From: Cristatella mucedo
Lineage: Eukaryota; Bryozoa; Phylactolaemata; Cristatellidae
Assembly (NCBI GenBank): GCA_009760855.2
Contig: WPIO01000313.1
Span: forward strand, 36,383-100,382
DNA length: 64,000 nt
Direction of reading: 5' to 3'
In this document: piece after piece, positions 1 through 53,167 of the stretch
Position numbering within the stretch: the stretch's first letter is position 1
How the letters are laid out: each line of letters starts with the position of its first letter
The notes under the pieces: model-generated
The model's input: only the letters and a program-made list of their open reading frames with translations
Told to the model about the DNA's origin: nothing
The model's database searches: none
Position numbers and translations under genes: made by a program

Positions 1-30
1 CTGCCAGACTCCTGGAACGGCATGAAGTCG
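1..30 (+). CDS. LRR cassette exon copy 1 (3' end only)
   Basis: The window opens inside an array exon. Ten codons (LPDSWNGMKS) are followed at position 31 by the donor gtaagctcag found after the other copies. The rest lies left of the window. It differs from type A at the codon before GMKS (Asn instead of Lys), so it may be a separate subtype. The reading frame, with the donor after a complete codon, matches the full copies. Confidence 0.8.
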
Positions 31-124
31 GTAAGCTCAGAAGTAAAGTTGCAACGCCTACATTTAAAAAAATGTGTAGCCTAGGCAACGTCTAACTACC
101 ATAAAAAAGAATTGTTAAAGCACT

Positions 125-1820
125 GGTGCACTTTTTTAAAATGCCTATGTCTACGATCAACCGACTCCTTAACTCCTCCCAGATTAGCTATATCCCTAGC
201 AATTATCGTGAAGATCAAGCAGATTGCTTCTGTAGCATCTTTGTCGACAAGATAGACAAGAGCAGGGATTCCATCCCTAGGGTTGCAGCATAACATGCCT
301 ACTGGAATTATGTCATACAACTGCATGGAGCTCCTTAACATCAACGTTCAAGGATGCAATGAGTGGCAATATTCTAAAGTGGATATCCTTATCAAAGAAG
401 AGAAATAGGCCGGTAGACCCTATTCTTGCTCTCCTACTTCCGATATGCTATTATCCATCTTCTGGTTTTATGCATATTTGAAGCAATAAAGATGTCATTA
501 GCCTTTCTTCACATCCCAGCACTTCTCATAAAGGCTATAACCTGGCCACTACTCAAGAAAGCAACGATTGACTGAGAGAAGTTGGGCAACTTCTCAGTCT
601 CTCTTCTATAGCTAATATAAAAGAAGCTGGACTGATTCGTTGCAGACCAGCTGAACTCTTATAGTGGAATTAGAAACGTCGGTAGTAAGATTCAATATGG
701 TTTTAGAACTAATTAGTCAACGGAGTCAACATAACTTCTTGTGTGTTATGACGTTCTTAGTAATGCAGGCTTAAGCTTGTTCGGCTGAATTTTTAGGCTT
801 GTTTTGATACTATCGATATGCCAGTGCTCGTGTGTGGTGCGTCATGCCAGTTTATCACTGGCACTGCACTGCAATAGTCCAGTTATTATCTTAGTAGCCC
901 ACTCCAGGGAATAACCGTTGACGGAAAATGATCAACATGAGACCCTATTTCAAGTTGAGTTGCCTACGGGCTTTGTCCTCAGTTGTGTTCGTTTAACAGT
1001 TGAGATCTGACTGCTTGCCGATTTGATAGCCAGGCACAGTCTAGGCATTCACCACGTAGAGAACACTCACTGGCCCCAATGCTTTTACGCCTCCTAGTCC
1101 TTCAGCATGTAAAATATTCTCACCTTTCATGCTGCATGTATATATGACATCCACACATAAATGTAAGCAAATCTTTAGAAATTAGATGATTAAAGCAACG
1201 TACTCGTTATGGAAAAAACTGTGGAATGTCCAAATGGGTACGGTTATATGGTACAATTGGCTCTGGTCTTTTATATGTATTTTTGAATCTAAGGCTTCCC
1301 ATTTCAAATGGACCGTTTATTGAACGACCTCGTAAGCTCCACCGTCAAGCCTGCATACCTTCAGGTAAATAATATCGTTAAATTCCGGCTTCTTTAGTCT
1401 GGGATACTACATTTATATTGGGAATTTGTGTGCAGCTTCCTGTCTCGACATCCGAAATTCACTGTTCGTTTGCCAGCATTTGCTACACGGTTTCTTTTTC
1501 TTTAGCCCCAGCCTACCTATCAGATTTGCTTCCCCACGAGGCTAAGCATGCTACTACCCACCCTTCTAAATCTGGTAGTTTACCTACACCTCAAATGAAT
1601 GTCTAGTCATTTGGAGACTTGCCATTAGTTCGCATGGTCCTAAAGCCTATACAGACTTCGGCCTATCGTCATGCCATATCCTGACTTTAAAAAGATCTAT
1701 TAATCCCACCACTTAGTGGGTCCGTGTGATTTTCCTTTAGTGTGCTTAACTGCGAGGACACCTTTATTGCTGCCATTAGCCACAGTATCATGGTGACCCT
1801 GTATGTGTCCCCTTTAAGTA
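125..1820 (+). mobile_element. LINE-A remnant in unit 1 (CR1/L2-type non-LTR retrotransposon)
   Basis: Scattered, frameshifted reading frames follow the order of a CR1/L2-type ORF2. A linker containing DQADCF..FVDKID lies near 200-260, and a reverse transcriptase start with PLLKKATID near 550-575. A decayed palm block lies near 1020-1070, where the active-site motif is lost. The C-terminal stretch APAYLSDLLPHEAKH lies near 1506-1550 and is followed by a 3' UTR ending around 1820. No frame is open for more than about 100 codons, so this is a fossil. The endonuclease region is absent (5' truncated). Confidence 0.8.
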
Positions 1821-2229
1821 GATTGTGCTTGCAGTCATGGAGATTCTAGTAACACTTCCGTCATGCTTCCTTTTCAGGGAATGTAAATTACCTGGAAAGT
1901 TGTCCTTGGATGCTGCATAAATGTATTATTATAGCTTATGTTTGAAACGTATGAATGCTGTAGCCTATTTAGCTGTGTGCACTCAGATGCTGCATCGGTG
2001 TAGTTGAAATCATGTTTAGTTTACATCGCAAATAATATTTTGGTACAGCTACAAATGATCGCACATCGTTTGAACCTAAAATGACGGTTAAAGCAGCTTC
2101 ACAAACAGCTGGTGGTCATTAGCTGCAGAACTGTTTAGAACAATTCCAAACGACACTTCATCTGTAATGATACTTAGCATTTCGCTTTATCTAAAACTTA
2201 ATGCTTTAAATAGCATTAGTTTTTTAAAG

Positions 2230-3790
2230 CTGGTAACTTTAATCATATTTTCTATTGAAAGGTGTGTCGACTCAGAGTACCTCAGTCGACAAGCTAATTA
2301 CTTGTCAGTCTTGTTATCGATGCTTCCGAAGATACAAGAGTTGTCTTCAGATCGGCCTACAAAGTTCGCACGTAGTTCATACCAAATTAAAAATAGAAGG
2401 TGCTGTTCGGTAACTACACTATTGAATGCTCACATAGATGTGCTTGGTGGAATGCGATTATTCAAAGGCTGACGACTGCACCTTCTAAGAAAGATTATAT
2501 CCTCAGCAAATTTGAAGCTTCTACTTTCGGTGGACACTGTGGCAACTATGCTTTAGCCTTCTCATTTTGTCAAAACTTTGTCGACTGTGTTGGAAACACG
2601 GTCGAGTTCAGGTTAGATAAAAAGAGTGATGCAGAGGGACTTGATAGGGAGGAGATAAAAAAGGTGATGAATACACTTTTTGGTACTTAAACAATTGAGG
2701 ATAACATCTGTCCGTCAGATGACGCACTGGCTTGGCTTATTCCATCCGGTTCATGTAGGGCTCAAGTGTCATCCAGCAACCAAGTCACCCATGAAATCTC
2801 TCAACGGTCGATCCACCTTCCGTTGCTGTTCTCCTTTAGTACTCCACATCTGGGAAAAGTGTTTCAGCTCCATGGCGAAACATTTCGCTTTTCGGCTGAC
2901 GATATGCAACTGTATTTGTCATTAAAACCGTTGGAACCAGCTGCAGCAACTGATAAACTGAATACTTGCCTTGCCGTAGTTCGATCCAGGATGTTGGCTA
3001 ATAATATCACACTGAGCACTAATTAAACTGGAGGGCTACTCACAGGGTACCAGAAGCATGTGGCAGGACTGCAAGGCTTATCTCTTCTAATAGGTAATAC
3101 TGTTGTGCGACCATCATTGTTTGCTCGGAGTTGGGGTGCCGTCTTTAGCCTACGTTTGGAAAGCTTCGTTAGGAAGACTGCTTCCAGAGCTAATAATGAC
3201 ATCGATCTCTATTTAGGATCAGGAACTGTCGTCCACTGTGTCCTGAACAATATTTTGCTAGCGCCATAGTACTCTCTTATCTACATTTTTGTAAATCCCT
3301 TTAGGCTTGGCTACCTCGAAAAGCCACTAGGCCATTGTAGCTAGCTATGAATAGTGCTACAAGGCTAGTTCGGAAATCCCAGAGATTTTTCTACTTCGTT
3401 AAGAAAGCTTCGATGGCTGCCTATCGATCAACGGATGCAGAGGAGCATTGTCAACTGTGACAGTTACGTTAAGGCTTTAGAGATGAGTGGCACTGATTGT
3501 CAACATTAGCTTGCTGCAGTGTTGTATCTGGCACAAATGCTGCAACATTGTATCTTGTTCTTACTTAAAAGTTTCCGACAAAAGGAACCAAGCAGCTTCC
3601 TAGCTTCGTGTCACCGAATTTCGTCAACTTAGGTCACCTCTTCAAAAGAATATGTCCTCAGGCTTTTCTGCATACCACATTCTTCGGGTACCAGTAATTT
3701 ACATTGATACAAGCAGCGAATCCATGTGCATCCTTGAGTAAACCTACGAGGCACCTCAAACAGTGAAGTCGTTGACTGATATCACAACTT
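2230..3790 (+). mobile_element. LINE-B remnant in unit 1 (CR1/L2-type)
   Basis: A second, different LINE remnant on the same strand. The endonuclease-RT linker ending KKDYILSKFEAS lies near 2490-2520. It is followed by a decayed block with SSSNQVTHEIS (from the GVPQGS motif region) near 2766 and by the catalytic region FSADDMQLYLSLK near 2890-2930, where FADD has become SADD. An RT thumb-like tail runs to about 3790. Stops and shifts interrupt every part. Its right half matches unit 3 and unit 6 and differs from units 2, 4, 5 and 7. Confidence 0.8.
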
Positions 3791-4210
3791 TTCGAGGCTA
3801 TCTGACATTCAAGACGAAACTTGTGTTAGATGTGTTCACTGTATTTACTTCCGGTAGTTTTTACGTTCACTATCTATGTATGCTATATACGTATTGCTGT
3901 CTCAAATTAGTTTTTGTTGGGCTTCATGCTTACTTTAGCAGCTGTAAACTTTTGCATAATTTGTACGACTCTGGAAGTCTTCATTTGTGCCTCACGTCAA
4001 GCGAACATAAATAAAGTGCTACGTTCACGGTGCGGATGATGTTCGACAGATGTTTTACTAGTGCTGTTTATAATGCCGATTATTGTACGACTTCTATGTG
4101 CTGTGTCTGCTACCTATTCATAATACGTTTTTGCTGTTAACTTCCCTTATAGCAATTTTATAAGGCTTGCAAGAGTGCAAACCAGGTATACTTTCCATTT
4201 CTGTTTCTAG

Positions 4211-4351
4211 CTTACGCACCTCGATATCAGCGGGAACAAGAAGCTAACCACTTTACCTTCTTCGATATGCCAGCTTCAAGCTCTGACAATGCTGGAGGCT
4301 CAGTCTTGTGGCCTAACTAAACTGCCAGACTCCTGGAAAGGCATGAAGTCG
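4211..4351 (+). CDS. LRR cassette exon copy 2, type A
   Basis: A 141-bp exon, phase 0 at both ends, preceded by ccatttctgtttctag and followed by gtaagctcag. It encodes 47 residues with two LRRs of the LxxLxLxxN..LP type. The first starts LTHLDISGNKKLTTLP (24 residues) and the second LTMLEAQSCGLTKLP (23 residues), ending GMKS. Joining such exons end to end continues the LRR period without a break, which supports the exon borders. The sequence is identical to copies 4 and 7. It should form part of the ligand- or partner-binding solenoid of the ROCO protein encoded downstream. Whether it is always included or an alternative cassette cannot be told from DNA. Confidence 0.87.
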
Positions 4352-4439
4352 GTAAGCTCAGAAGTAGAGTTGCAACGCCTACATTAAAAAAAATGTGTAG
4401 CCTAGGCAACGTCTAACTACCATAACAAAGAATTGTTAA

Positions 4440-6050
4440 AGCACTGGTGCACTTTTTTAAAATGCCTATGTCTACGATCAACCGACTCCTTAACTCCTCC
4501 CAGATTAGCTATATCCCTAGCAATTATCGTGAAGATCAAGCAGATTGCTTCTGTAGCATCTTTGTCGACAAGATAGACAAGAGCAGGGATTCCATCCCTA
4601 GGGTTGCAGCATAACATGCCTACTGGAATTATGTCCTACAACTGCATGGAGCTCCTTAACATCTACGTTCAAGGAAGCAATGAGTGGCAATATTCTAAAG
4701 TGGATATCCTTATCAAAGAAGAGAAATAGTCCAGTAGACCCTATTCTTGCTCTCCTGCTTCCGATATGCTATTATCCATCTTCTGGTTCCATGCATTTTT
4801 AAAGCAATAAAGATGTCATTAGCCTCTCTTCAAATCCCACTACCTCTCAGAAAGGCTATAACCTGGCCACTACTCAAGAAAGCAACGATTGACTGAGAGA
4901 AGTTGGGCAACTTCTCAGTCTCTCTTCCATAGCTAATATAAAAGAAGCTGGAATGATTCGTTGCAGACCAGCTGAACTCTTATAGTGGAATTAGAAACGT
5001 CGGTAGTAAGATTCAATATGGTTTTAGAACTAATTAGTCCACGGAGTCAACATAACTTCTTGTGTATTATGACGTTCTTAGTAATGCAGGCTTAAGCTTG
5101 TTCGGCTGCATTTTTATGCTTGTTTTGATACTATCGATATGCCAGTGCTCGTGTGTGGTGCGTCTTGCCGGTTTATCACTGGCACTGCACTGCAATAGTC
5201 CAGTTATTATCTCAGTAGCCCACTCCAGAGAATAACCGTTGACGGACAATGATCAACATGGGACCCTATTTCAAGTTGAGGTACCTACGGGCTTTGTCCT
5301 CAGTTGTGTTCGTTTAACAGTTTAGACTGACCGCTTGCCGATTTGATAGCCAGGCACAGTCTAGGCATTCACCACGTAGAGAACACTCACTGGCCCCAAT
5401 CCTTTTTATGCCTGCTAGTCCTTCAGCATGTAAAATATTCTCACATTTCATGCTGCATGTATATATGACAACACACATAAATGTAAGCAAATCTTTATGA
5501 ATTAGATGATTAAAGCAACGTACTCGTTATGGAAAAAACTGTGGAATGTCCAAATGGGTACGGTTATATGGTACAATTGGCTCTGGTCTTTTATATGTAT
5601 TTTTGAATCTAAGGCTTCCCATTTCCAATGGACCGTTTATTGAACGACCTCATAAGCTCCACCGTCAAGCCTGCATACCTTCAGCTAAATAATATCGTTA
5701 AATTCCGGCTTCTTTAGTCTGGGATACTACATATATATTGGTAATTTGTGTGCAGCTTCCTGTCTCGACATCCGAAATTCGCTGTTTGTTTGCCAGCATT
5801 TGCAACACGGTTTCTTTTGCTTTAGTCCCAGCCTACCTATCAGATTTGCTTCCCCGCGAGGCTAAGCATGCTACTACCCACCCTTCTAAATCCGGTGGTT
5901 TAGTGACTTCAAAAGGATGTTTAATAAGCTTCTATTTATGCCACCACTTAGTGGGTCCATGTGATTTTCCTTTTGTGTGCTTAACTGTGAGGACACTGTT
6001 ATTGCTGCCATTAGCCACAGTATCATGGTGACCATGTATGTGTCACCTCT
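4440..6050 (+). mobile_element. LINE-A remnant in unit 2
   Basis: Same fossil as in unit 1, very close in sequence, but with a deletion of about 90 bp just after the C-terminal RT stretch (near 5903). This brings the motif GGLVTSKGCLISF into frame and makes a 97-codon spurious ORF. Unit 7 shares the same deletion, which marks units 2 and 7 as sister copies of this half. Confidence 0.8.
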
Positions 6051-8439: not shown

Positions 8440-8580
8440 CTCGTGCTGCTAGAAATCAGTGGAAACGAGGGGCTAACCACTTTACCTTCCTCGATATACC
8501 AGCTTCAAGCTCTGAAAAGGCTGATGGCTCGTTCTTGTGGCCTAACTGAACTGCGGGACTCCTGGGACGGCATGAAGTCG
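8440..8580 (+). CDS. LRR cassette exon copy 3, type B variant
   Basis: A 141-bp phase-0 exon behind a long T-rich tract ending tttttttttag and before gtaagctcag. The two LRRs begin LVLLEISGNEGLTTLP and LKRLMARSCGLTELR. Compared with type A, the changes fall largely on the variable x positions of LxxLxL, while the leucine frame is kept. It differs from copies 5 and 6 by one codon: ggg (Gly) where they have gag (Glu) at codon 11. Note LR in place of the usual LP at codons 38-39 in type B. Confidence 0.86.
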
Positions 8581-8669
8581 GTAAGCTCAGAAGTAAAATT
8601 GCCAAGCTTAGATTTAAAATAGAAGTTTAGCCTAGGCCACGTCTACCTAATATAAAAAATAATTGTTGA

Positions 8670-12775: not shown

Positions 12776-12916
12776 CTTACGCACCTCGATATCAGCGGGA
12801 ACAAGAAGCTAACCACTTTACCTTCTTCGATATGCCAGCTTCAAGCTCTGACAATGCTGGAGGCTCAGTCTTGTGGCCTAACTAAACTGCCAGACTCCTG
12901 GAAAGGCATGAAGTCG
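12776..12916 (+). CDS. LRR cassette exon copy 4, type A
   Basis: Identical in all 141 bases to copies 2 and 7, with the same acceptor context (ctgtttctag) and the same donor. Identity of the coding part over three copies spread across 22 kb points to recent duplication or gene conversion. The frame is open and phase 0 on both sides. Confidence 0.87.
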
Positions 12917-17095: not shown

Positions 17096-17236
17096 CTCGT
17101 GCTGCTAGAAATCAGTGGAAACGAGGAGCTAACCACTTTACCTTCCTCGATATACCAGCTTCAAGCTCTGAAAAGGCTGATGGCTCGTTCTTGTGGCCTA
17201 ACTGAACTGCGGGACTCCTGGGACGGCATGAAGTCG
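17096..17236 (+). CDS. LRR cassette exon copy 5, type B
   Basis: A 141-bp phase-0 exon with acceptor tttttttttag and donor gtaagctcag. It is identical to copy 6 and differs from copy 3 at one codon. LRR starts: LVLLEISGNEELTTLP and LKRLMARSCGLTELR. A tyrosine stands where type A has cysteine (codon 20). Confidence 0.87.
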
Positions 17237-21426: not shown

Positions 21427-21567
21427 CTCGTGCTGCTAGAAATCAGTGGAAACGAGGAGCTAACCACTTTACCTTCCTCGATATACCAGCTTCAAGCTCT
21501 GAAAAGGCTGATGGCTCGTTCTTGTGGCCTAACTGAACTGCGGGACTCCTGGGACGGCATGAAGTCG
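21427..21567 (+). CDS. LRR cassette exon copy 6, type B
   Basis: Identical to copy 5 in all 141 bases, with a slightly longer T tract before the acceptor (ttttttttttag). Open, phase 0 on both sides, same donor. Confidence 0.87.
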
Positions 21568-26502: not shown

Positions 26503-26643
26503 CTTACGCACCTCGATATCAGCGGGAACAAGAAGCTAACCACTTTACCTTCTTCGATATGCCAGCTTCAAGCTCTGACAATGCTGGAGGCTCAGTCTTG
26601 TGGCCTAACTAAACTGCCAGACTCCTGGAAAGGCATGAAGTCG
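26503..26643 (+). CDS. LRR cassette exon copy 7, type A
   Basis: Identical to copies 2 and 4, with acceptor ctgtttctag and donor gtaagctcag. It is followed by a left half like that of unit 2, so exon type A is followed by the unit 1 or unit 2 class of LINE-A, never by the unit 3 class. Confidence 0.87.
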
Positions 26644-30738: not shown

Positions 30739-30879
30739 CTCGTGCTGCTAGAAATCAGTGGAAACGAGGAGCTAACCACTTTACCTTCTTCGATATGCCA
30801 GCTTCAAGCTTTGAAAACGCTGGAGGCTCGTTCTTGTGGCCTAACTGAACTGCCAGACTCCTGGGACGGCATGAAGTCG
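30739..30879 (+). CDS. LRR cassette exon copy 8, type C
   Basis: A 141-bp phase-0 exon with acceptor attttttttttag and the common donor. It reads LVLLEISGNEELTTLP then LKTLEARSCGLTELP. It shares its first half with type B and keeps the LP and cysteine of type A. It differs from B at four residues (codons 20, 27, 29, 39) with two synonymous changes. Type C could be the ancestral form from which B and A diverged, or a recombinant; I cannot decide which. Confidence 0.86.
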
Positions 30880-33604: not shown

Positions 33605-33949
33605 CTTGAGCTGCTCATTAATAATAATAATAGTAATAATATTACTGCACTTGATAAAGCGCCCTCAGAGAACTTAATCTCTTTCTAGGTGCTTTACATT
33701 TGCTGCAAAGGGAAATGCAATTGAACGATAACTAAAATCACTCTTGAAAAACAAACAAAATGAATAATATGGTTAGGGGTGGCATGCACAGGGTCAGCAT
33801 GCAAATGTGGTTAGTGGCAGCATATCAGCGGAAACGAGAAGCTAACCACTTTACCCTCCGTGATATGCCAGCTTCAAGCTCTGAAAACGCTGGTGGCTCG
33901 TTTTTGTGGCCTAACTGAACTGCCAGACTGCCGGGACGGCATGAAGTCG
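33605..33949 (+). pseudogene. LRR cassette exon copy 9, split by a LINE tail insertion
   Basis: The acceptor (ctag at 33601-33604) and the first four codons are followed by an insertion of about 206 bp (about 33617-33822). The exon then resumes with ISGNEKLTTLP, LKTLVARFCGLTELPD and GMKS, before gtaagctctg. Reading through the insert meets a TAG near 33688, so the original exon is broken. An AG at 33819-33820 at the edge of the insert would, if used, give a 129-bp exon that is still phase 0. It lacks a good pyrimidine tract, so I regard rescue as possible but unproven. Trp before GMKS has also been lost (CRDGMKS). Confidence 0.8.
33617..33822 (-). mobile_element. LINE-A 3' end (minus strand) inserted in LRR exon copy 9
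   Basis: Begins with an (ATT)-type run, then the block gataaagcgccctcagagaa and the 3' UTR of LINE-A read from its tail. The last part (atgcaaatgtggttagtggc) is the complement of the 3' UTR seen at 63613-63660. Related tails lie at 56230-56415 and 62238-62510. It is a short 5'-truncated copy; no clear target duplication is visible. Confidence 0.8.
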
Positions 33950-34464: not shown

Positions 34465-36840
34465 CACACATAAGCATATAAAAGACGAATCATAGGAACC
34501 CACTAAATGCTGTAATAAATAGATGCGTTTTTAATTTAGTTTTAAATTAGGACAAGTCAGGGGATATCGTGATTGAAGTCGCAAGTGATTTTCAGGATTT
34601 GGGACCATACGAACTAAAGGCATGGTCTCCAGAGGATTAGAGATTTTTACGAGGAGTATACAGTTCGATTCCGAAAAGCTGGTGATATGATGCTTAGGCT
34701 GGTGGGGAAGTAGATCTGATAGGTAGGCTGGAGCCTAAGAATGAAGGGACCTAAAACTGTGTGACCAAACCTTGAAGTCGTACATCGCTTGACCGGGAGT
34801 CAGTGCCTGTCGGCGAGAAGTAGTGTGATGTAGCAACTGCCATGCTGACGACAGACAAGCCTAGCTGCAGAGTTTTGCACCAGCTGTAAGTGTAGTTCGA
34901 TTGCACGAGGGCTGGTACCGCTTCTTTCCTCAACAGCTGGTGAGACCATCCCTGAGAGGGGCCTGTGCACAGCTGTGGTCGGCTTCTAATGAGTCGTTGA
35001 CACAGGCCGATACACACATGGTGGATTCATTATCGGGGTCGGCGAAGGGACAGCCAGGGTCGAGGAGGAGAGTGGAGTGAGAGTAGGGGCCGAAGGGAGC
35101 AGTGCGCTCTTCGGTTCCGCGGGTGGTAATAAACTGTCGGTGTTGGGCATCAGCTGGCTCTCTGCTGTGCGAACAAACGCGTAAAGTAAAACGTATGTGC
35201 GCGATTGCACCTGCCTGTAGGGCCTACTAGCAGTGAGTTGCAGAATTCAAGATAGGATGTCAAAAAAGCATCGACCAATTTTGACGTGGTATTCCAGTCT
35301 ACACAAGCGCGAATTTTAGCAATGTTATGTTGCCGAAAGGTGGCAGATTTGACTGTGGAGCTGATGTGGTCGTCCAATGAAATGTCACTTTGGAACACAA
35401 CCCATAGATTTCGTGGAGATTTAATCAGAGATATACTGGTAGAGCCGATTGTGATCGTCTGCCATTCCAATTTCTGAATCATGCTTGGTTTGCCCATAAC
35501 AAGTAAGTTGGTTGTATCATCATTCAAATAGGGAAAATTTGCTGCCATCCAAGTGCGGATGTCGTCAATACTTGTGACAAGGTATTGCTAGAATTTCACG
35601 TGCTGGAGGGTTTTTAATGATCACACCAAAAGTACAACTGAGTGTCATCCCCGTAAAAGTGAAAGCCTAGATTGTGCTTGGCAATCACAATTGCAAGAGG
35701 GGGAGTATAGGCCAATAAAAAAGCTTCATCAAACATTTAGCCTTGAGGTATTCCATATATAAGGGTTATTCGGGTGACCTTTTTGATTTACATCAACACT
35801 CTGGAGTCTTCCACTGAGATAAGACGTGAACCATGCCAGTGATGCCCAGGGGAGATGATAGGAACACAAGAAGGACTTGGTGATCCATACATCAAAAGCT
35901 GCCGGGAGATTAAGCAAAACAAGCATGGAGTGTCTGCATTCATAAGTAGGTCGTTGTGCAGTCGAATTAGTGCTGATTCTGTGCAGTGATTTAAGTGTGC
36001 AGTTGTTTACCTCTTAAACCAGAGTGGAACTTACTAGCAAGGTTTGATGTTTTCTACATATGAGTTCAGCATGTCTGCCATGACTTGTTCCTGTGCCTTT
36101 GATAGTACAACTACTCTTCTGCTGCCGACTGTGGCTCAACCTTTTCAGCGGTCCTGAGCTGCTACTTCCAGGCTACTCACTAACTCAACTGCTCCCCTGA
36201 CTCTGCTATGCTTCTCTCTTTCTCTTTGTTGCATGAGACGAAGTCTGTTGGCTACCGAATGCACACCGAAAGCCACTTAGGCTGTGAGTGCACTATACAA
36301 AACTCTCCTGCATAGCACCCACTTGGTCTTTATGACTTTGTGGAGTTAGAGAAGGAGATACAGTACATTACATGGTAGAACGGAAACTGTGGTGGAATTT
36401 CTTAAGTTCTCATGGTTTAACGTTGCTCTCTTGAGTTGCCTGACTACAGCCTTTTTGAAAAGTGGTGGGGCATGACCTGGGGCTAATGTCATTTATGATG
36501 TTAGTTTTGCATGACAGGAGCAGATCAATGCATCGTAGAAGTAGGACAATAGGAACATGTCCCAAAGGACTAGTTGTCTTCTTTGATTGGGATATGAACT
36601 TCAGAACGAGGGCAATAGTGACCTGCTTCACTGTAGGCATTGAGTAGCTGCAAGGGATTGAGGGAAAGACTTCCAGGGAGGTGCTGCCATCGTAAGGATG
36701 GACTTTCTTATCTTGCCTCTCTTCTTGACCAAGAAGCTAGAGAAGCGATCTGCCAGATCATCACACGGATCATTAGGTAATGAGCTAACCTGGGAGCATG
36801 ACCAGAGATGGTTGATCGTCGATACCAGCATTTTTGGATT
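34465..36840 (-). mobile_element. LINE-A copy on the minus strand, near complete for RT, with nested insertion
   Basis: Read right to left it has the linker (PNDPCDDLADRFSSFLVKK, 36831-36628) and the RT start (KFISQSKKTTSPLGH then STTFQKGCSQ-type residues, 36640-36410). The palm (VLLNLPAAFDVW and WFTSYLSGRLQSV) lies at 35926-35729 and the catalytic block NLGFHFYGDDTQL near 35690-35640. The C-terminal part with DDHISSTVKSATFRQHNIAK is at 35548-35150, and the 3' UTR runs to about 34465. The family's usual YADD is YGDD here. Frames are broken. A plus-strand LINE-C tail sits inside at about 36095-36385. Confidence 0.75.
36095..36385 (+). mobile_element. LINE-C 3' end nested in the minus-strand LINE-A
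   Basis: The stretch from ctgctgccgactgtggctc, through a 3' UTR with cacccacttggtctttatga, to a tail gatacagtacattacat. It matches pieces at 54640-54720, 59780-59960 and 61640-61830, and the complement at 46905-47200. It is a 5'-truncated insertion. Confidence 0.65.
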
Positions 36841-38467: not shown

Positions 38468-38575
38468 TTGGAAAAGCTGAATATTAGAAACAACCACCTC
38501 AAGGCTTACCCGGAGGTTACTTTGCATTGGAAGAATCTTAAATATTTGGACCTTTCGAATAATTTACATTTAAAG
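38468..38575 (+). CDS. LRR exon of 36 codons, penultimate known exon of the ROCO gene
   Basis: A 108-bp exon, phase 0 at both ends, with acceptor ctcctcttcttag and a full-consensus donor gtaagt. It encodes LEKLNIRNNHLKAYPE (first LRR, 23 residues) and LKYLDLSNNLHLK (start of a second). Joined to the terminal exon at 51200 the second LRR continues into KEMGYRNMISELPK and then LIKLDLENNP, and joined to an array exon before it the leucine period is kept. It does not belong to the array type and is single-copy here. It most likely forms the fixed part of the LRR domain next to the Roc domain. Confidence 0.85.
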
Positions 38576-39600: not shown

Positions 39601-40485
39601 TCAATGCCAATTCCTTCCGCCGGGGCAGTAACTGTCCCCTGAGGCCACTGAGTGGTGCAACGGGCTCCGGGGGGGGGGGGGGTTTACAAAAACCCGCTGA
39701 CCCTGAATCAAATCATTTCCGTCAGAGCTCTCTGTGCGAGGCTCGAGAGCCATCGGAGGTTTCCATTCGTACGAGAAAAGCTGACGGCAAGGCGATGAGC
39801 CGGCGTTCAATCCAGCGGTGGCAGAGAGATTGTACCAGTACACCATCATCATTATGTCCCGCCCACTCCGGGCTGCCATTTCTTTTATCGTTCGGTGGTT
39901 TCGCTCTACTATACCGTTTCCAGAGGAGTGGTAAGCACAGCGGTTCATTGCCTGTATCCCCCAACTATCGAAAAGCTGGCGAATAGCGTTCGATCGGAAA
40001 GTGGCGGAATCGTCCATTAAGAGCTGCCACGGCGGGCCCCTTTCTCTGAATATTTCATCCAAGTGTCGGACCACCGAGGTCTTGCTCTCGTCGGGTATAC
40101 ACGGCCAGATGTCAAACCTGCTGGGGCCGCTATCGACAAGTGTCAGATATTTGACCTCGTTGAAGAAAGTAACATCAATAGCCAGGCGGCGCCAGTGGGA
40201 ATCTATGTCCAAATGTCCATGGCTCCAAGACACTGGGGCTGGGTCCACAGACCGGCAACGCATGCACGATTTAACAACGCGTTCTGCTTTCTCTGCGTTA
40301 CTGATATGCCGGGGAAGCAGAGTCTGGCCAGGTGCAACGTAGGTCAACCCTAGGTGATGCAAATCGTGGAACGCTCGCAGGTCTACTTCTTGAGCTAGAG
40401 TAGCAGCTGCGAGAATCGAGATTTGCTTATGCCACGGCTGCAGTACTCGCGTTAAGTGGTCTGCTTTGTTGTCGGCCGAACGCAC
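39601..40485 (-). CDS. Integrase region of the gypsy-type element
   Basis: An open frame of 294 codons. The N-terminal zinc-binding set is H40, H44, C74 and C77 (FHDLHH and CMRC). The catalytic core has D104 (LAIDVT), D158 (LLMDDSATF) and E194 (GIVERNHRTIKEM), with exactly 35 residues between the last two: the D,D(35)E pattern of retroviral and gypsy integrases. The tail runs into a proline-rich stretch made by a run of twelve G on the plus strand (about 39669-39681), where the frame is probably disturbed. This is the best preserved part of the element. It would insert the DNA copy into the host genome. It is separated by a break from the RNase H frame. Confidence 0.85.
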   Translation of the reverse strand: MRSADNKADHLTRVLQPWHKQISILAAATLAQEVDLRAFHDLHHLGLTYVAPGQTLLPRHISNAEKAERVVKSCMRCRSVDPAPVSWSHGHLDIDSHWRRLAIDVTFFNEVKYLTLVDSGPSRFDIWPCIPDESKTSVVRHLDEIFRERGPPWQLLMDDSATFRSNAIRQLFDSWGIQAMNRCAYHSSGNGIVERNHRTIKEMAARSGRDIMMMVYWYNLSATAGLNAGSSPCRQLFSYEWKPPMALEPRTESSDGNDLIQGQRVFVNPPPPRSPLHHSVASGDSYCPGGRNWH

Positions 40486-40488
40486 CAG

Positions 40489-40920
40489 CTATATTCTCAC
40501 CCGAAGGTCGTACTCCTTAATTACGTCGCGTACTATTGCTGTCCGCCGTCGAGCCAATGCCTCGCCTGGACCTCGGGTACGGATAGGCTTATCGCCTACG
40601 ACAATCGATCGAAGCCACGAGTGCACAGTGGTCGAGTCAGTAAACAATTCGATCTCTCGCAGGCCCCAGGCCAGGGCTAAATTTAGGCCCTTTATGACAG
40701 CCTCTAGTTCGGCCAGATTTATATGCACTACGTCATCTGGCTTTCTAAGCCAAGAGGCATCCTCGACTGTCTGCCCTCCAATTCGCAAGCAGGCGCCTAT
40801 CGCTAAGCTGCTTGCGTCGCACCATACCTGTCCGCTGGGTGACGACGGCACACTCCATACTCTGGAAACTGGATCCTCTTTTATCACGCGTCGGCTGATC
40901 TCCTGTGCCATCCGAAGCAC
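40489..40920 (-). CDS. RNase H region of the gypsy-type element
   Basis: 143 codons with the RNase H acidic residues in order: D35 in VWCDAS, E71 in HINLAELEAV and D95 in ELFTDST. This activity removes the RNA strand during reverse transcription. It lies directly between RT and integrase and stops one codon from the integrase frame, so an original single pol frame has been broken here. Confidence 0.8.
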   Translation of the reverse strand: MLRMAQEISRRVIKEDPVSRVWSVPSSPSGQVWCDASSLAIGACLRIGGQTVEDASWLRKPDDVVHINLAELEAVIKGLNLALAWGLREIELFTDSTTVHSWLRSIVVGDKPIRTRGPGEALARRRTAIVRDVIKEYDLRVRI

Positions 40921-40990
40921 GTCCTCCGTGACCTCGGCATCCCAAGACAGGTAGGTCTTGTGTGGCTCTCTTTACGTAGCTGCAGGCTGG

Positions 40991-41320
40991 TCAAAGCCAT
41001 CCGGCAACGGGAAAATGGCCCGTTAATTGTCCACACCACGAGAAAAGCTGCCTGCAAGTCGGGCACTGAGGTAGCGATTCAACATCATTATCTCTGCCCC
41101 ACTTAAGCTTTCCATCATGGTCAGTGACGCGAAGCCCTAGTACGCGACCTCCGACCAACTTTTCCGGGGGCTTAGCTTCGAGCCCAAACTGTCGTAGATG
41201 AGAGATATCACGCTCATTCGTGACCATGTCATTGTTGATGATTATATCGTCTACGTATGAGTCAGTGCCTTCGCGAACCTGTGGGTCCATAGAAAGCACC
41301 TTATTTAACACGGCGGTCAT
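40991..41320 (-). CDS. Reverse transcriptase core fragment of the gypsy-type element
   Basis: 109 codons holding the catalytic box SYVDDIIIN (YVDD at about 41257-41246) and, downstream, LGLRVTDHDGKLKW. The fingers part lies in the next frame pieces to the right (41350-41535, broken) and ends at VRPVLDYRKLN in the frame 41537-42208. The region is split by at least two frameshifts. Confidence 0.8.
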   Translation of the reverse strand: MTAVLNKVLSMDPQVREGTDSYVDDIIINNDMVTNERDISHLRQFGLEAKPPEKLVGGRVLGLRVTDHDGKLKWGRDNDVESLPQCPTCRQLFSWCGQLTGHFPVAGWL

Positions 41321-41536
41321 TATCTTAGGCTCTACATTTAATCCGAAGCCTAGCCGCGTAAGGCAGTACCGCCTCCCCCTATATGCGATAACCTAGTATC
41401 TCCACAGGGAAGGGTCGACATGAAGCTGTAAATACGCTTTGCGAAGGTCGATAATGCTGATGTTACTTCCCATGCGGCGCCATGCTCGAAGTTTCTCGCT
41501 GCAAACGTCACCGTTGGCAGTGTGGCTGGAAACATA

Positions 41537-42208
41537 TTAGTTCAGCTTGCGGTAGTCTAAGACGGGCCGCACTTTGTCTTTATGACTCTGGAACACTGCC
41601 ATTAGTGGCACGAGGCCTTCACACTCCCCTTCGTAGGGCTTCAGCCAGCCGATTTGGATCCACTCTTGAATCTCATTGTCGTAGTCGGCCTGCAAGTCGG
41701 TGGGCACGCGGTAAGCCTCGACGCTGTTAACCAAGGTGGGTGAAGTCACGCCGTCGGCCCAATGCCACTTTACGACCCATTTTCCTTCATGGTACACCGC
41801 CGAAAAGTCTCTGTCGGAAACACTGACGTCGGTTGACAGTGCCCCGATTGCACTGTCCTGCCCTTTGAAGGTTACTACACCGCCTTCAGAGCCTATCACA
41901 ACGCCTCCCAGCTGTCGCATAGCATCCATGCCAAGTAGCATATCATACCCCGGTACGATCTCGGATACGAGGCAGTCAAACTCTATTGCTATGCCCTGCA
42001 CAGAGCATTTCATGCGGCACGCCGAACGGCAACGAGCGACTGCTCCGTTGAACGTAATTACTGGCTCGTTAACCGAATAAGACTGTGCCGAGGTGGCAGG
42101 CAGTACCGAAGATTCAGTCACAATCGACCGAGAGCAGCCGGTATTGAGGAGCGCCTTCATAATACGACCACCGTTGAGAACATTTATTGTTGGCAGTCGA
42201 GTTGACAA
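41537..42208 (-). CDS. Protease and start of reverse transcriptase of the gypsy-type element
   Basis: 223 codons. Residues about 18-30 contain the retropepsin-like motif ALLNTGCSRSIV, where the catalytic aspartate of D[ST]G is Asn (codon at about 42143-42145), so the protease should be inactive. A later LLGMDAMRQLGG matches the second conserved retropepsin block. From about residue 160 the frame enters RT (EIQEWIQIGWLKP, then KVRPVLDYRKLN). Confidence 0.8.
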   Translation of the reverse strand: MSTRLPTINVLNGGRIMKALLNTGCSRSIVTESSVLPATSAQSYSVNEPVITFNGAVARCRSACRMKCSVQGIAIEFDCLVSEIVPGYDMLLGMDAMRQLGGVVIGSEGGVVTFKGQDSAIGALSTDVSVSDRDFSAVYHEGKWVVKWHWADGVTSPTLVNSVEAYRVPTDLQADYDNEIQEWIQIGWLKPYEGECEGLVPLMAVFQSHKDKVRPVLDYRKLN

Positions 42209-42246
42209 GCAGGGGAATTTGCTGGCGCTATATCATGCACTTCCCC

Positions 42247-44840: not shown

Positions 44841-44849
44841 CAGTATCAG

Positions 44850-45960: not shown

Positions 45961-45964
45961 AGCA

Positions 45965-46900: not shown

Positions 46901-46904
46901 CAAG

Positions 46905-47760
46905 AAATCATTTTTAATGTAATGTAATGTACCTCCGTCTGAACTCCACAAAGCCATAGAGACTAAGTGGGTGTCACGCAGAAGGGTTTTGTATTGCTCT
47001 GTACAGCTGTACAATGTACTTTGTACAGCTATGCAATTGCTTTGTGCAGCTGTACAAATAATATTGTACAGCTCACTCACAACTTAAGCCACTTTTCTGT
47101 ATGCATTCGTTAGCCAACAGACTTCATCTCATGCAACAAAGAGAAAGTGGGAAGCATAGCAGAGTCAGGAGAGCAGTTAAAGTAGTGAGTTGCATGGAAT
47201 TAGCAGCTCAGGACCGCTGGAAAGGATGAGGCATCGTTGGCAGCAGGAGAGTAGTTGTCGTTGCATAAGAATTGTGGAAGCGAATTCCACAGTCTAGGAC
47301 CAGCAGAGATACAGTTTCTATCCCAACGGTCTTTAAGCAGAAAAATTGAACAGCTAATTTATTGTCCATACAGGAACTGAGGGTATGAAGAGGCTGAAGC
47401 TGGCACAGCAGTTCAGCTGGGTATGGAGGAGCCAAGCCGTGGCTGGCCTTGTGGGTCAGCATAATAACTTGGCTCTTTATCCGGTGATCAACCGGCAACC
47501 ATCCTAGCTCTTTTAGCAAAGACACGACACGTGACAATGACACGTGCTCAAACCTCTGGGACTTGAAAACAAGCCGTGCAGCTATTTTCATAGCCAGCTG
47601 CAGTGGCCTAGTGGCTTTCTTTGGTAGCCCAGCCAGAAGGGAAGTACAATAATCAACCCGAGACAGAATTACGGAACTAGTTAGATTTTTGGCAAGCCAC
47701 TGTGGAAGACAGCTCCTAATCTTCAGAGCACGTTCTTGGTTGGCTATGCAAGCAGGTGAG
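46905..47760 (-). mobile_element. LINE-C copy, minus strand (RT C-terminus, 3' UTR and tail)
   Basis: The frame at 47591-47208 holds KIAARLVFKSQRFEHV, SLLKELGWLPVDHRIKSQ and ELLCQLQPLHTL. The 3' UTR runs left through a block of short inverted pieces (tgtacagctgtaca near 46998-47070). It ends in an acattacatt-type tail at about 46910-46935, which defines the 3' end of this family. Confidence 0.78.
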
Positions 47761-47764
47761 AAGT

Positions 47765-48055
47765 TTTCTAGTTTTCAATCGATGCTATTCGGGCCCTTAA
47801 TCGTTACGTTGGGCTTATCGTCATTATTTTGAGATGTGTACCATCATGTACTGCTATTGTCTGCATTTATGGTAATAATATGGTGCTCATGCAGAGCTCT
47901 ACGAATTGCGGTTTTATGCTACTGACTTTAAAGACATTGGAAAAATTGCAAGCAAGAATGTCGAAAAACTTTAACATCGTGCAAGCAGGAATTTTTCAAA
48001 TCACCGGTTAGCCAGATATGTCAACTGCATGAAAACTCTAGCTTAAAATGGCATT
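47765..48055. other. Short intron stretch without features
   Basis: No transposon motif or exon seen between the LINE-C copy and the AG repeat. Confidence 0.4.
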
Positions 48056-48060
48056 GTATG

Positions 48061-48067
48061 AGAGACT

Positions 48068-48154
<87 letters not shown>

Positions 48155-48309
48155 ACAAACAGTCAAGCAGGCAGACTAACACAGAGAGAAAGAGAGGCGA
48201 GACGGAGAGATACAGAGACACACACACACACAGAGGGAGAGTGAGAGAGATATTTAGAAATAGAGAGAGAGAGAAATAGAGAGAGAGAGAGAGAGAGAGC
48301 GAGAGAAAT

Positions 48310-48347
<38 letters not shown>

Positions 48348-48370
48348 GCAGAGAGAAAGAGAGGGCGGGA
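48061..48370. repeat. (AG)n microsatellite, about 300 bp, imperfect
   Basis: A long purine run of AG repeats with short interruptions (gacaaacagtcaagcaggcag, ACAC and AAAT pieces). Its complement produces a spurious 137-codon ORF of serine and leucine. Pure purine tracts of this length can slow polymerases and are common in large introns. Confidence 0.95.
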
Positions 48371-48699
48371 GGGATACCGAGCTGAAGGGAGCAGGAGCTT
48401 TAGCTGCCCCATTCAGAAATCCAACAGCTGCCATAGTATACGTTCGTGAACATGGCTTGTAAATTTTAGCAAGTGAAAGATCGTTGTGCTAGGCAATTTT
48501 CCAAGATTGGAGGAGCTATCCTTCCGAGCCAGGTCAATGCCTATTCTACTAGTATTATAGTTTTTCCTGTTTGGAACGTTAAATTCCGAGGTTTCTGAGC
48601 ACAGTGGGTGAACCTATAACTACTGACTAGTGAGTAGGTTTTCTAGCTATTTAATTTAAACAATATTTTTCCATCTGTGTGTGGCTGTCATCAATACAT

Positions 48700-49250
48700 G
48701 CAGCAGAAATACATGGAGTTGGAATATTTCGTCGAGCTGCAGTGCTGAGAAGGATCAGCAAACGTACAGCTGAGAGCCATCTGCATAGAAGTGAAAACCT
48801 AGATTGTTTTTAGTGGCCACATCTACAATAAGGAAAGTTTAAGCTTTGAAACGAAGCACACCAAGCACAGAACCATTCGGTAGTCCAAATTCCAGTAATG
48901 ACAATACATTTTCATGTAGCCTTCAGAAAACTAAATCTCAGTCTTGGAACTATACAGATGCTGTATATAATGTACTAACCAAGTTTTTGTTGGTGACATC
49001 AGCAAACAGGCATAGTGTACACAGTTACATGCTCAATTAAAACGAATCATAAAGACCCACCAAGTTCTGCAATAAGCAGGTTCATTTTAAGCTTATTTTT
49101 AAATGTCGTCATGTCAACGGACATTGTGATGCGCGTCGGTGGTGACTTCGAGGCTTTGGGAGCATAAGAACTTTCTAGCACGGTCTGTGAAGGTTTTGAG
49201 GTTCATTTGAGGTATGGCTAAATGATTTAAGTCTGACCAACAGATTCTTT
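48700..49250 (-). mobile_element. LINE-A fragment, minus strand
   Basis: Complementary to the RT catalytic region (LGFHFYADGSQL-like block near 48770-48815), a gap, then the 3' part near 49040-49240, which parallels 34465-34640. No useful frame remains. Confidence 0.65.
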
Positions 49251-49254
49251 GGCA

Positions 49255-50235
49255 GATGGGGTAGAAATTTTGATATTTCTTATTGGCTCATCGAATGCAC
49301 TTTTTACGTTCACATCAATGGAGGCACTTACTGAGATACTGCGAAATGGTCCATAACTAAAGGTAATATTATGAGCAACCACTACTTGCAAGTAAAATAT
49401 TTTAAAGGCTAGCACAAGTGAAGGTACAGAGCACAGAAGTTACCCAAGAAGATCCCGAATGTTAAAAAATCTATGAACTATTTTTCATTTGTTGAAAATA
49501 GCCCTAATTTACGTGCAATATTATGATGCTGCAAGTCGGCAGGCTTTGTTAATATGCCTTTTTGAAAAATGAATTTTTTAATGTATACCCAACATTTGTG
49601 CGAACGTACGGCGTAATGGTCTGGCCGTGCCTTTTCCTTAGGTTTGACTCTCGAGTTTCTTAGCGACTGCTAGTTTTTTCTTAATTAATTGGCTGCTTTA
49701 TCGCCTTCATATAATTTCCTTACACTTCTAACCCGGCCCTGCCATGCCAATGGGGCCTTTACACACTCAGATTGCTTTAAAAGCACTTTGCGTCCATTAA
49801 GGTAGGGAGGGATCAAAGCACGGATGTAACGACCTCATCTATGCAAACATGAAAATTTAGATGTATATCAAAATCACCTGCATGCGAAAGAAAGTAAATT
49901 GTGTTACAGCACGAACCTAGAACTGCTCAGTTTGTTATCAAACTCTATAAATTATTTGACGAATGATCAGTGTTCACATATTAGCTAGTAGTCTCGTGGT
50001 CCGGTAGAAGTTAAATTATTATCACTCCAGAATATTGGAGCTCAAGAACTGTTGTGCGACAGAGAGCCCAAGTGATATCGACAATTCTGCTTGGAACCTG
50101 TTTATGATTGTGCGAGTTGGGGTAAGATAATCATTGCCCCATCCAAATGAATCATCTGAAGACTATGCCTCTGAGCATGATTTATCGTGTTACTCTTCCA
50201 TTATAATGGCAACCGCTTTAGAAGATTCAAAGCCT
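49255..50235. other. Intron sequence without recognised features
   Basis: No repeats of the families described here and no exon-like segment with both splice signals. One minus-strand ORF (49415-49227) has no recognisable motif. Confidence 0.45.
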
Positions 50236-50238
50236 TAC

Positions 50239-50284
<46 letters not shown>

Positions 50285-50291
50285 CACACAC

Positions 50292-50322
<31 letters not shown>
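50239..50322. repeat. (TA)n microsatellite
   Basis: Runs of tatata with a short acacaca interruption. The local 65-codon ORF of Tyr-Ile repeats is spurious. Confidence 0.95.
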
Positions 50323-50324
50323 GG

Positions 50325-51185
50325 CTTTTGAAGCTTCAGCACAGTATATGAGGCTTTTGAAAGGTTTCTTTGCTCTATCAAGCACATTCTAGAATCGCAA
50401 TAGGCGTACCGTGCATAGTTCCCGTTCGCCAATCATGCCCTTTACTTCCTTAATAGTTGCCACGACTTGAGATTGACGCTTATGTTTAATGTCATAACCC
50501 CCCTCATTTTTCCTCCCACTGTCGCCCCTGGTGCCTCTGGCTGCCTTTCCTACTTCTCACTAGCCGACTTAGTCATGGCCACCAGATCCTCATCAGCTAT
50601 ACGATGATCCATGCCATCGTAGATCATATCACTATATATTTGGAAAAAATGGATTGAGTGGCGCTCCGAAAGTCGAAGAGAGAATTGACGTGGGACGAAC
50701 AGATACTTCCGTCAAAAATATACCTTTAACATGAGTCTAAAGATAGATCATATTTTGAACTTCTTTTTATTTCAGTGTACCTCAATCCTCGAACTTATTA
50801 CCAACTAATGAGAAGATATCCCACTCGTTGATGAAATGCAAAGCAAAGTATTGCATACGGATCTACCCTTCTGAAAAATGCCCTTTATTAATCGTTAACT
50901 CACCTGCAGTTGTAATAAGCAACCTGATCGAACAGGTACCTGCCGTTGGCTTTATATTCCATTAACCTCATGATGGTTCTTGCAATAATTACAGTTCTAT
51001 TGAGGCTGAAGGCCATTTCTTTGGCGGAGCCTACTTCCAGTTATGCAGGAGGACATGTTTTTAATATACCTTAGCTCGAAAAATCTGCATTCCTTTCTTA
51101 ATGCTTCATAGTAGTGTGGATACACCATTGAGTCGTGCCATTGGTGAGCTGCCTCTCTCATCTTGGCTCATCCGTCAGTTGAGCT
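50325..51185. other. End of the last intron
   Basis: No transposon recognised. It ends in the pyrimidine tract ctctctttatttttag (51184-51199), a strong acceptor for the terminal exon. Confidence 0.5.
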
Positions 51186-51199
51186 CTCTTTATTTTTAG

Positions 51200-53167
51200 A
51201 AAGAAATGGGCTATAGAAATATGATAAGTGAACTGCCAAAGGTAGTCATGAGCACTTCGCTGATCAAGCTTGACTTGGAAAATAATCCAATGGTTTTCCC
51301 ACCTAGGGAAGTGTGTTACCAGGGAATGGAAGCTATTCGGAAGTACTTCCGAGATGGTGTTCAAGGAAAGGAATCACTTTGCACTGACACCATAAACATG
51401 CTTGGCAACACTGGTGCTGGAAAGACTAGCATCGCCCAGTCGTTGCGTTTGGGGCGACTCTCAGCTTGTGAAGTAGAAGACAGAACTCGTGTGATTGACC
51501 AGAACCCTCTGAAAATTGGAGATAGTTTCGTGATAGTGAACGACTTTGGAGGTCATGAAATTTATCATAAAGTGGTTCCAATATTTTTGCCTAATAACGG
51601 TCTTTGCATAATAGCATACAGCATGGTTGAAGATATTGAGGAGCAGAAGAATCAGGTAAAGAAGTGGCTTATGACAGTGTTTTCCAAGTCTACCGATATC
51701 CGGGTGATCATAGTTGGCACCCACTCCGATCTACTTGAAGCTGACCTTGTCAAAACCAGATTGAATGATATGGATAGTTATGCATCGAAACTTCAAGAGT
51801 CTGCTGTAGGACATCTTAATTCTAACATCAGTGCACTAGGAAGCAAGACTTGTCACCAAGCTTCCATCAACCTTAAGCAATCTTTAGCTATATTATCTTC
51901 TGCTGATGTTTCGTTCAGGTCACTGAGCTGCAAGGAGAATGACACTGAGCTGCAGGAAGAGGGTTTGCCTGAGCTGTTTTCATTAATTAGGGAAAAACTT
52001 AAGCCAACTGTGCAATATCCCGCATCTTGGTACAAGATAATGAAAGAGATTAAAGAGCATCGGTCAAGCGATCAGCCATATCTGCAATGGCAACAAGTCA
52101 AAGATGTGTATGGAAAGCACTTGGATCAGGAGCCTGACGACTCCACTCTGAAAGTTATCCTCCGTTCTCTTGTGGCTTCATCCCAGATTATATGGTTAGA
52201 GAGCTCCGAGTCTCTTAAAGACTGGATATTTCATCAACCTCAGCAGATTTTTGAAGATTTAAAGAAGATACTACATCACGACAATTGTGAAAGCATGCTA
52301 AATGATCTGGGCGAGGACTACTACAGGACAGAAAAAGAGGATTACGCTCGAGGGTTTCTCAATGAGAATTTCTTTGCTTTTTTGCTTGGAAATGGAGATC
52401 ATGTGCCTGCTGTTGCCAGTTTTATGCAGCATTTTCTCATGATCAACCTGGTTAATACGGGAAAATACATATTGACCAGTAATCTCACAGATGAACCACC
52501 GATCAAGTTGGAAAAATGGTTACAAGAATTGTCTCACAAGCCTACTGTTCGCGTACGCCTCACTTTCATTGAAAATATCATGCCGCTAGCGTTCTTTCCA
52601 ACTAACCTGGCATCAGTAATAAAATGGGTTTGCTCTGAGAAAGCCACGCCAGAGTTTTGGAAGGATGGAGTATTGTTTGTACTCAACCGTATACATGTTG
52701 TCATTAAGCGCATCAACGGCACCTTAGATGTAATTGCATTTTCCAAATCGACACAGGAGAATATCTGGAGTGTTGTTCAACCACTGCTGAGCTGCATCGG
52801 TAAGAATATTGCCGAGCATTGGAAAGGCGTCCCTCCTAAGTGCAGCATCATCTGCCCGAGATATGCAAACCACAAGCAGCTTTTGCGTGATGGCCGCGAC
52901 GTGCTTTTGGATGAACTGGCAAAAGAGGAGACATCACATGCTAAACCAAACTTTAATGCTACTTGGCACTGTATTGAATGCGAAGATGACATACCTGGAT
53001 TATGGATGTATCCACATAAACCAGGTACGGACAAACGCTTGTATCCCTCTTGGCATGGTTTGGGAGTGTTTAATGTTCTACTGGTGTTGAGACTGTCAAT
53101 AGAGCAAGATGAATTGGCTGGCGTTTGCCATGCAAGCATGTCTTCTCACGTCGGCATATTTCCGTGA
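51200..53167 (+). CDS. Terminal exon of an LRR-Roc-COR (ROCO family) GTPase
   Basis: Phase-0 exon opening with KEMGYRNMISELPK after a strong acceptor. 655 codons end at TGA 53165-53167. Counting from the Met at 51206, residues 1-35 finish the LRR domain (LIKLDLENNPM). About 60-265 form the Roc GTPase domain, with P-loop GNTGAGKT (67-74), switch II DFGG (113-116) and the base-specificity motif THSD (172-175). From about 270 (YPASWYKIMKEI) to about 560 is a COR domain, which mediates dimerisation in this family. The last 90 residues are Cys/His-rich (WHCIECEDD) and end without a kinase or other known domain. No membrane segment is seen, so it is probably cytosolic. Switch II has His after DFGG where many family members have Gln or Arg. 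It acts as a signalling switch; its partners are unknown. The upstream LRR exons provide its recognition part. Confidence 0.92.
   Translation, partial: KEMGYRNMISELPKVVMSTSLIKLDLENNPMVFPPREVCYQGMEAIRKYFRDGVQGKESLCTDTINMLGNTGAGKTSIAQSLRLGRLSACEVEDRTRVIDQNPLKIGDSFVIVNDFGGHEIYHKVVPIFLPNNGLCIIAYSMVEDIEEQKNQVKKWLMTVFSKSTDIRVIIVGTHSDLLEADLVKTRLNDMDSYASKLQESAVGHLNSNISALGSKTCHQASINLKQSLAILSSADVSFRSLSCKENDTELQEEGLPELFSLIREKLKPTVQYPASWYKIMKEIKEHRSSDQPYLQWQQVKDVYGKHLDQEPDDSTLKVILRSLVASSQIIWLESSESLKDWIFHQPQQIFEDLKKILHHDNCESMLNDLGEDYYRTEKEDYARGFLNENFFAFLLGNGDHVPAVASFMQHFLMINLVNTGKYILTSNLTDEPPIKLEKWLQELSHKPTVRVRLTFIENIMPLAFFPTNLASVIKWVCSEKATPEFWKDGVLFVLNRIHVVIKRINGTLDVIAFSKSTQENIWSVVQPLLSCIGKNIAEHWKGVPPKCSIICPRYANHKQLLRDGRDVLLDELAKEETSHAKPNFNATWHCIECEDDIPGLWMYPHKPGTDKRLYPSWHGLGVFNVLLVLRLSIEQDELAGVCHASMSSHVGIFP

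Follow-up and report, generated by a model that had tools for sequence, protein, structure and literature searches.

What could be made by a gene in which a long row of related leucine-rich repeat (LRR) exons stands in front of the exon of a ROCO GTPase? This question is raised by the 64,000-nucleotide stretch analysed here (the window), which corresponds to positions 36383-100382 of contig C237 in an assembly of 572 Mb and 688 contigs. The contig is approximately 100 kb long, and the 36 kb upstream of the window were added to the reading of the array. We consider it fairly probable that the locus encodes a member of the LRR-Roc-COR (ROCO) family whose leucine-rich sensing tip is assembled from exchangeable 141-bp exons of phase 0; the product likely serves, with a choice of cassettes, as an immune receptor inside the cell. 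With its animal 141-bp exon array, this ROCO-like gene is a new, animal variant of the type described for brown algae.

A self-search with the exon at 4211 returned nine copies of the cassette in the window, the next matches having E >= 1. Seven copies are complete, namely #10 (4211-4351), #11 (8440-8580), #12 (12776-12916), #13 (17096-17236), #14 (21427-21567), #15 (26503-26643) and #16 (30739-30879), all on the forward strand and mostly spaced by approximately 4.3 kb. Each of them measures 141 bp, is bordered by AG and GT, has phase 0 on both sides and is free of stops; the exons of #10, #12 and #15 are identical, as are those of #13 and #14. Cassette #9 enters the window with its 3' end only (1-30, forward strand), its complete and intact 141-bp exon lying at C237:36272-36412, of which 36272-36382 are upstream of the window. 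The last intact copy, #16, is followed by #17 (33809-33949, forward strand), which has lost its first 13 nucleotides together with the acceptor and occurs as the same broken copy in the paralogue C256. The original prediction of nine 141-bp copies, eight of them intact, was thus borne out. On the whole contig there are 17 cassettes, from 1615 to 70331, of which 14 are intact. Cassette #2 has two surplus bases and #8 lacks one base; each of them thus contains a frameshift with an in-exon stop and has retained both splice sites. The array begins less than 1.7 kb from the contig end and runs off it on the 5' side.

Each cassette encodes 47 amino acids, which equal one LRR of 24 plus one LRR of 23 residues. 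One cassette on its own already matches Pfam LRR_1 with 26.2 bits (cut-off 20.6), whereas the fixed exon joined to seven cassettes matches LRR_8 with 134 bits (1.2e-39). This fixed exon of 108 bp (38468-38575, forward strand) encodes 36 amino acids of LRR type (LRR_4, 27.8 bits, cut-off 27), has phase 0 at both ends and has counterparts in C256 and C239. Downstream follows the Roc-COR exon (51200-53024, forward strand), whose frame starts on a phase-0 border and stays open to 53164. Both exons were found where they had been predicted, and the proposed phase-0 borders and in-frame modularity hold for the cassettes, the fixed exon and the frame at 51200. Because every border is in phase 0 and a cassette comprises two whole repeats, any subset of cassettes would remain in frame.

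The Roc domain in the exon at 51200 is supported by Pfam PF08477 (1e-10, 42.3 bits, cut-off 27). In an alignment of eight related Roc-COR sequences, searched against Pfam at E <= 10, Roc was listed for all eight members (best 9.3e-14) and COR-A for four of them (best 3.1e-5), the window's own sequence being without a COR-A match. The profile of this alignment matches LRRK1 across Roc and COR (query 9-477). An AlphaFold2 model of Roc-COR reached a mean predicted local distance difference test score (pLDDT) of 71 and a predicted template modelling score (pTM) of 0.70, with pLDDT below 50 in the first 61 residues, and a fold search with this model gave LRRK1, LRRK2 and the C. tepidum Roco protein (LRR-Roc-COR) as best hits. 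Judged by both the profile and the modelled fold, a COR domain follows directly after Roc. The domain scan of the Roc-COR exon listed neither NACHT nor NB-ARC, Roc being found instead, and no kinase domain was present in this exon. A protein search among 5.8 billion sequences, in which scoring was confined to the 7996 candidates with the most words in common, found only two relatives with 33% and 31% identity; this set is probably thin in animal genomes.

The original prediction had called the Roc-COR exon terminal. The exon itself stood, its terminal status is doubtful: at 53024/53025, inside the open frame, lies a donor-like CCAG|GTA, and among ten paralogous exons scanned, that of C237 included, the end motif was found in seven, all with CCAG|GTA at the same place, after which the sequences diverge. 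Due to this conserved donor-like site we do not call the exon terminal. It likely ends at 53024 and the gene may continue further 3', as judged from this motif. A translated comparison of the sequence 3' of 53024 with C148 and C150 gave, among the matches listed, long similarity, mostly broken by stops, and we claim no 3' exon there. Two blocks 3' of 53024 that are common to C256 were also considered as an exon and rejected, since they contain stops in most frames and look non-coding.

If the cassettes form a recognition surface, where do they vary? For each locus, the ten 'x' positions of the LxxLxLxx motifs in the cassettes (strand sites) were compared with the other 37 positions by a one-sided Mann-Whitney test. 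In C237 the mean amino-acid entropy was 1.35 bits at strand sites and 0.26 elsewhere (p = 1.7e-5; 11 distinct among 14 sequences). The corresponding values were 0.93 and 0.46 in C107 (p = 0.019, 11 sequences) and 0.75 and 0.27 in C148 (p = 0.038, 7 sequences). Furthermore, the mean nonsynonymous p-distance over the 91 cassette pairs of C237 was 0.316 at strand sites and 0.057 in other codons, whereas the flanking introns differed by 0.090 over 200 bp upstream and by 0.159 over 300 bp downstream. Among the 87 non-identical pairs, strand-site distance exceeded that of the downstream intron in 80 and that of the upstream intron in 85. Hence, the variation is concentrated on the beta-strand face of the LRRs, at sites predicted to contact a target, and goes beyond intron divergence, which makes a role as pathogen sensor likely. 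The Roc-COR exon is under purifying selection, its ratio of nonsynonymous to synonymous substitution (dN/dS) being 0.23-0.69 and below 1 in all 15 pairs of six loci.

The search for homologous arrays, which had been proposed as a check, was successful within the same assembly. A cassette protein query, for which 200 candidates were considered, gave at least 150 scored matches, all with E <= 0.001, on at least 25 contigs. Among the matches listed, 23 of 25 contigs carry their cassettes on one strand only. Some family contigs look like haplotype copies of one another; the pairs C173/C215, C214/C292 and possibly C150/C274 have near-equal cassette spacing or equal Roc frames and probably represent such copies. 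On C470, C491, C509 and C193 we observed very regular arrays with a period of approximately 3.8 kb, in which two cassette types alternate. A table of Roc frames of at least 448 amino acids, a threshold that was set post hoc and just admits C239, comprises 20 frames. Fourteen of these have a cassette within 80 kb among the matches listed, and at 13 of these 14 loci every listed cassette lies upstream on the same strand. We read 48 cassettes: 17 from C237, five from C256 and four from the fetched part of C239; the initial 8 kb of C263 contributed two, and C107, C148, C150 and C550 together supplied 20 single stretches. Intact 141-bp phase-0 exons, from seven loci, make up 40 of them, and two more are intact at 138 bp (C550, C239). 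The remaining six are broken; three of these belong to C237, two to C239 and one to C256. The donor reads GTAAG in 34 of 37 cassettes checked. In C256 and C239 a counterpart of the fixed exon with an AG acceptor is situated between array and Roc-COR, and the Roc-COR acceptor is in phase 0. Moreover, nine of the 11 Roc-COR exons considered, the window's among them, are open frames of 612-712 amino acids; the other two are C49, which is broken near its start, and C239, which was read in part.

How such arrays change can be seen from the units in which the cassettes are embedded. Units #10 and #12 are 100% identical over approximately 1.6 kb around the exon and 88-97% on both flanks. Upstream, #15 resembles #12, with 100% identity to -1.8 kb, where #10 has 90%; downstream it resembles #10, with 99-100% to +1.8 kb, where #12 drops to approximately 90%. 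Judged by these flanks, unit #15 is a mosaic. Units #13 and #14 share an identical core, and #10 and #11 show their lowest identity at and just past the exon (82% and 77%), with 97-100% at 1.4-1.8 kb upstream. At the sequence level, this pattern is as expected from conversion or unequal exchange combined with exon-centred divergence. The broken #17 recurs in C256 with its upstream 1.7 kb (1703 bp at 96.8%).

Exchange seems to have reached beyond single units. Between C237 and C256, cassette protein identity reaches 94% (mean 75%), and the introns of the two loci share collinear blocks, mostly at approximately 80-89%, up to window position 48218, the fixed exon included. Their Roc-COR exons are only 46% identical. 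The Roc-COR exon of C237 is closer to those of C148 (75%), C150 (77%) and C49 (69%), and its DNA matches these three contigs at 82-86% from approximately 51,061 on, which is the left limit of the sequence compared. The C237 cassettes have mean identities of 54% to the seven read from C148 and of 46% to the one read from C150. Hence, it seems that an array, together with its fixed exon, became linked to the GTPase exon of another paralogue group, the recombinant being either C237 or C256, and the junction would lie within 48218-51061, between the end of the C256-like collinearity and the start of the C148/C150/C49-like sequence. These comparisons point to an apparent transfer of sensor arrays from one GTPase exon to another. 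A long low-complexity tract with 8-bp spacing occupies 48024-48488, near the putative junction. The same intron between fixed exon and Roc-COR contains remains of an LTR (long terminal repeat) retrotransposon on the reverse strand (39604-42232) with gag-asp protease, RVT_3 (RNase H-like), rve (integrase core) and DUF7047; with only these four domains matched, the element is no proof of an animal origin and was rejected as a clade marker. A BEL/Pao label for it was dropped. A related stretch, 90% identical over 3.7 kb and in opposite orientation, is located upstream of Roc-COR in C256.

The LRRs and Roc are predicted to be part of one transcript, as their exons share strand and frame and have compatible phases. 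In the proposed mechanism, cassette exons would be spliced together and on to the fixed LRR exon and Roc-COR, and alternative splicing would include some cassettes and leave out others, every included one lengthening the domain by exactly two repeats with the frame intact. Microbial or self ligands would then be bound at the variable concave face, and the fixed LRR would relay this binding to the GTPase switch of Roc. Germline diversity would come from unit duplication, conversion and array exchange, and splicing would multiply it per cell or transcript. On the genomic layout, cassette choice by splicing is likely, and alternative splicing of comparable exons has a precedent in brown algae (PMC11378527). 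The frameshifted cassettes #2 and #8 have kept their splice sites beside an intact Roc-COR exon and therefore suggest skipping; as an alternative to skipping, transcripts could begin after #8.

Several points weigh against this interpretation. The joining of the exons is predicted from genomic sequence, and a misjoin of contigs could account for the mosaic. Contig C237 did not yield the gene's 5' end, the array running off it, the 3' end is uncertain, and no signalling or death domain was detected in the exons read. The immune role is proposed by analogy and from the pattern of variation. At strand sites, the ratio of nonsynonymous to synonymous differences (pN/pS) was 1.03 in C237, 1.65 in C107 and 0.81 in C148, thus not clearly above 1, and in C237 synonymous distance at strand sites (0.31) reaches the level of nonsynonymous distance; with pN/pS around 1, the case for positive selection therefore rests on the intron comparison. 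Moreover, six of the 20 Roc frames have no cassette among the matches listed, and at C114:281423 (+), the lone exception among the 14 loci with a nearby cassette, the Roc frame comes first and the cassettes follow downstream at 292-325 kb (+). These downstream cassettes perhaps belong to the array of a next gene. Some members of the family seem broken: in C49 the exon has an in-frame stop near its start, behind which the Roc-COR frame opens, and in C239 the Roc frame has 448 amino acids.

Could the whole array simply be spliced into one long, fixed LRR solenoid that arose by tandem exon duplication, without any cassette choice? All 14 intact copies would fit such a product, being in frame and phase 0, and from #9 to #16 eight intact cassettes follow one another without interruption, equivalent to 16 LRRs. 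However, #2 and #8 keep their splice sites yet end the frame, which would leave no Roc-COR protein, and the identical #10, #12 and #15 would repeat one surface. We hold this alternative to be rather unlikely. The original prediction had offered both a full solenoid and cassette choice: the former fails if the whole contig array is transcribed, as #2 and #8 stop before Roc-COR, and is possible for #9-#16, whereas cassette choice is the better fit.

The locus could also be in decay, with the array as a recombination-prone relic and the gene as a pseudogene or silent. In line with this are the six broken cassettes among the 48 read, stops in six of the 150 cassette matches listed and the stop near the start of the C49 frame. 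Nevertheless, nine of 11 Roc-COR exons have stayed open, dN/dS is below 1 in each of the 15 pairs, and the GTAAG donor is conserved in 34 of 37 cassettes, which makes decay improbable. Finally, repeat collapse or misjoins of the assembly could lie behind the copy number or the mosaic, considering that the contig is only 100 kb long and ends inside the array and that transposon sequence abounds in the intron separating the fixed exon from Roc-COR. Against such an artefact, the units differ by up to approximately 20%, introns included, and the same design occurs on many contigs, including C550 with 13.6 Mb; we regard this explanation as very improbable. Our preferred reading remains a ROCO receptor with cassette choice.

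To which group does the host belong? COX1 was located on the 21-kb contig C688, where its frame requires read-through of TGA and favours ATA as Met. The Pfam COX1 scores were 503.1 bits with code 5, 487.4 with code 9, 481.4 with code 4 and 504.4 with code 13; AGR is preferably read as Ser rather than Gly, a choice that the scores of codes 5 and 13 do not settle. The AGR codons fall on COX1 sites that we take to be invariant Ser (KVFSW, NNMSFW). With tRNAs identified by ARAGORN and genes besides cox1 named by reading of the frames, the order is cox3-K-A-N-atp6-cox1-I-nd3-G and nd1-nd6-cob-S-nd4L-nd4-H-nd5-F, T being encoded on the opposite strand, which presumably resembles the arrangement in chitons and phoronids. 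Taken together, the code and gene order of the mitochondrial contig suggest that the host is likely a lophotrochozoan animal and not a brown alga. Between approximately 11.0 and 15.0 kb, C688 also contains repeats about 2.1 kb apart with an nd3-like frame and trnG.

Brown-algal LRR-ROCO genes had reportedly been studied already by Zambounis and co-workers in 2012, as cited by Teng and colleagues in 2024. The latter work describes brown-algal ROCO genes (Ectocarpus, Saccharina) in which an LRR exon measures 72 bp, has phase 2 and encodes a single repeat; concave sites under positive selection and splice variants are reported as well (Teng et al., 2024; PMC11378527). The likeness to our locus includes the LRR-ROC-COR order, tandem LRR exons in phase, variation on the concave face and a proposed role as immune receptors. 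Compared with the 72-bp, phase-2, single-LRR exons described there, the cassettes here have 141 bp, phase 0 and two LRRs (24 + 23), the host is likely a lophotrochozoan animal, and array and GTPase exon are joined as an apparent mosaic. The differing exon size, phase, repeat number and host therefore suggest an origin independent of the brown-algal arrays. The earlier statement that a ROCO gene of this design had not been described was wrong in kind, since brown algae possess LRR-ROCO exon arrays (PMC11378527), and may hold for animals: our literature search, which covered few subscription papers, found no animal ROCO gene with such an exon array among the papers listed, as judged by title and opening of the abstract. 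ROCO domains are reported in other animal contexts, for example as part of Toll-like receptors of Aplysia (PMC9334734).

MFHAS1/MASL1-type animal ROCO proteins as well as LRRK1 and LRRK2 likewise have LRRs followed by Roc-COR, and LRRK1, LRRK2 and the C. tepidum Roco protein are the nearest solved folds. The present gene, which has no kinase in the exon read, differs from MFHAS1, itself a kinase-less LRR-Roc-COR type, and from LRRK1/2 in that its LRRs are encoded on a cassette array and in its many paralogues. Interchangeable modules that vary a recognition surface are also known from the variable exons of Dscam and the LRR modules of lamprey variable lymphocyte receptors (VLRs). However, our locus encodes a Roc-COR GTPase protein, and the likeness drawn here concerns the modular design rather than mutually exclusive choice or DNA rearrangement.

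We tentatively suggest, as a possibility to which we give less credit than to the receptor itself, that animals of this lineage have turned ROCO GTPases into combinatorial intracellular receptors independently of brown algae, with splicing drawing cassettes per cell or transcript in addition to germline array swaps. If cassettes are indeed chosen, the locus would be an animal counterpart, with another exon design, of the brown-algal system behind the idea of an adaptive-like immunity. ROCO proteins have mostly been studied via LRRK2 and Parkinson disease. A family with an LRR tip that diversifies on a constrained Roc-COR argues that sensing of targets may be among the tasks of LRR-Roc-COR proteins in animals, and it supplies many natural pairs of tip and GTPase with which this can be tested.

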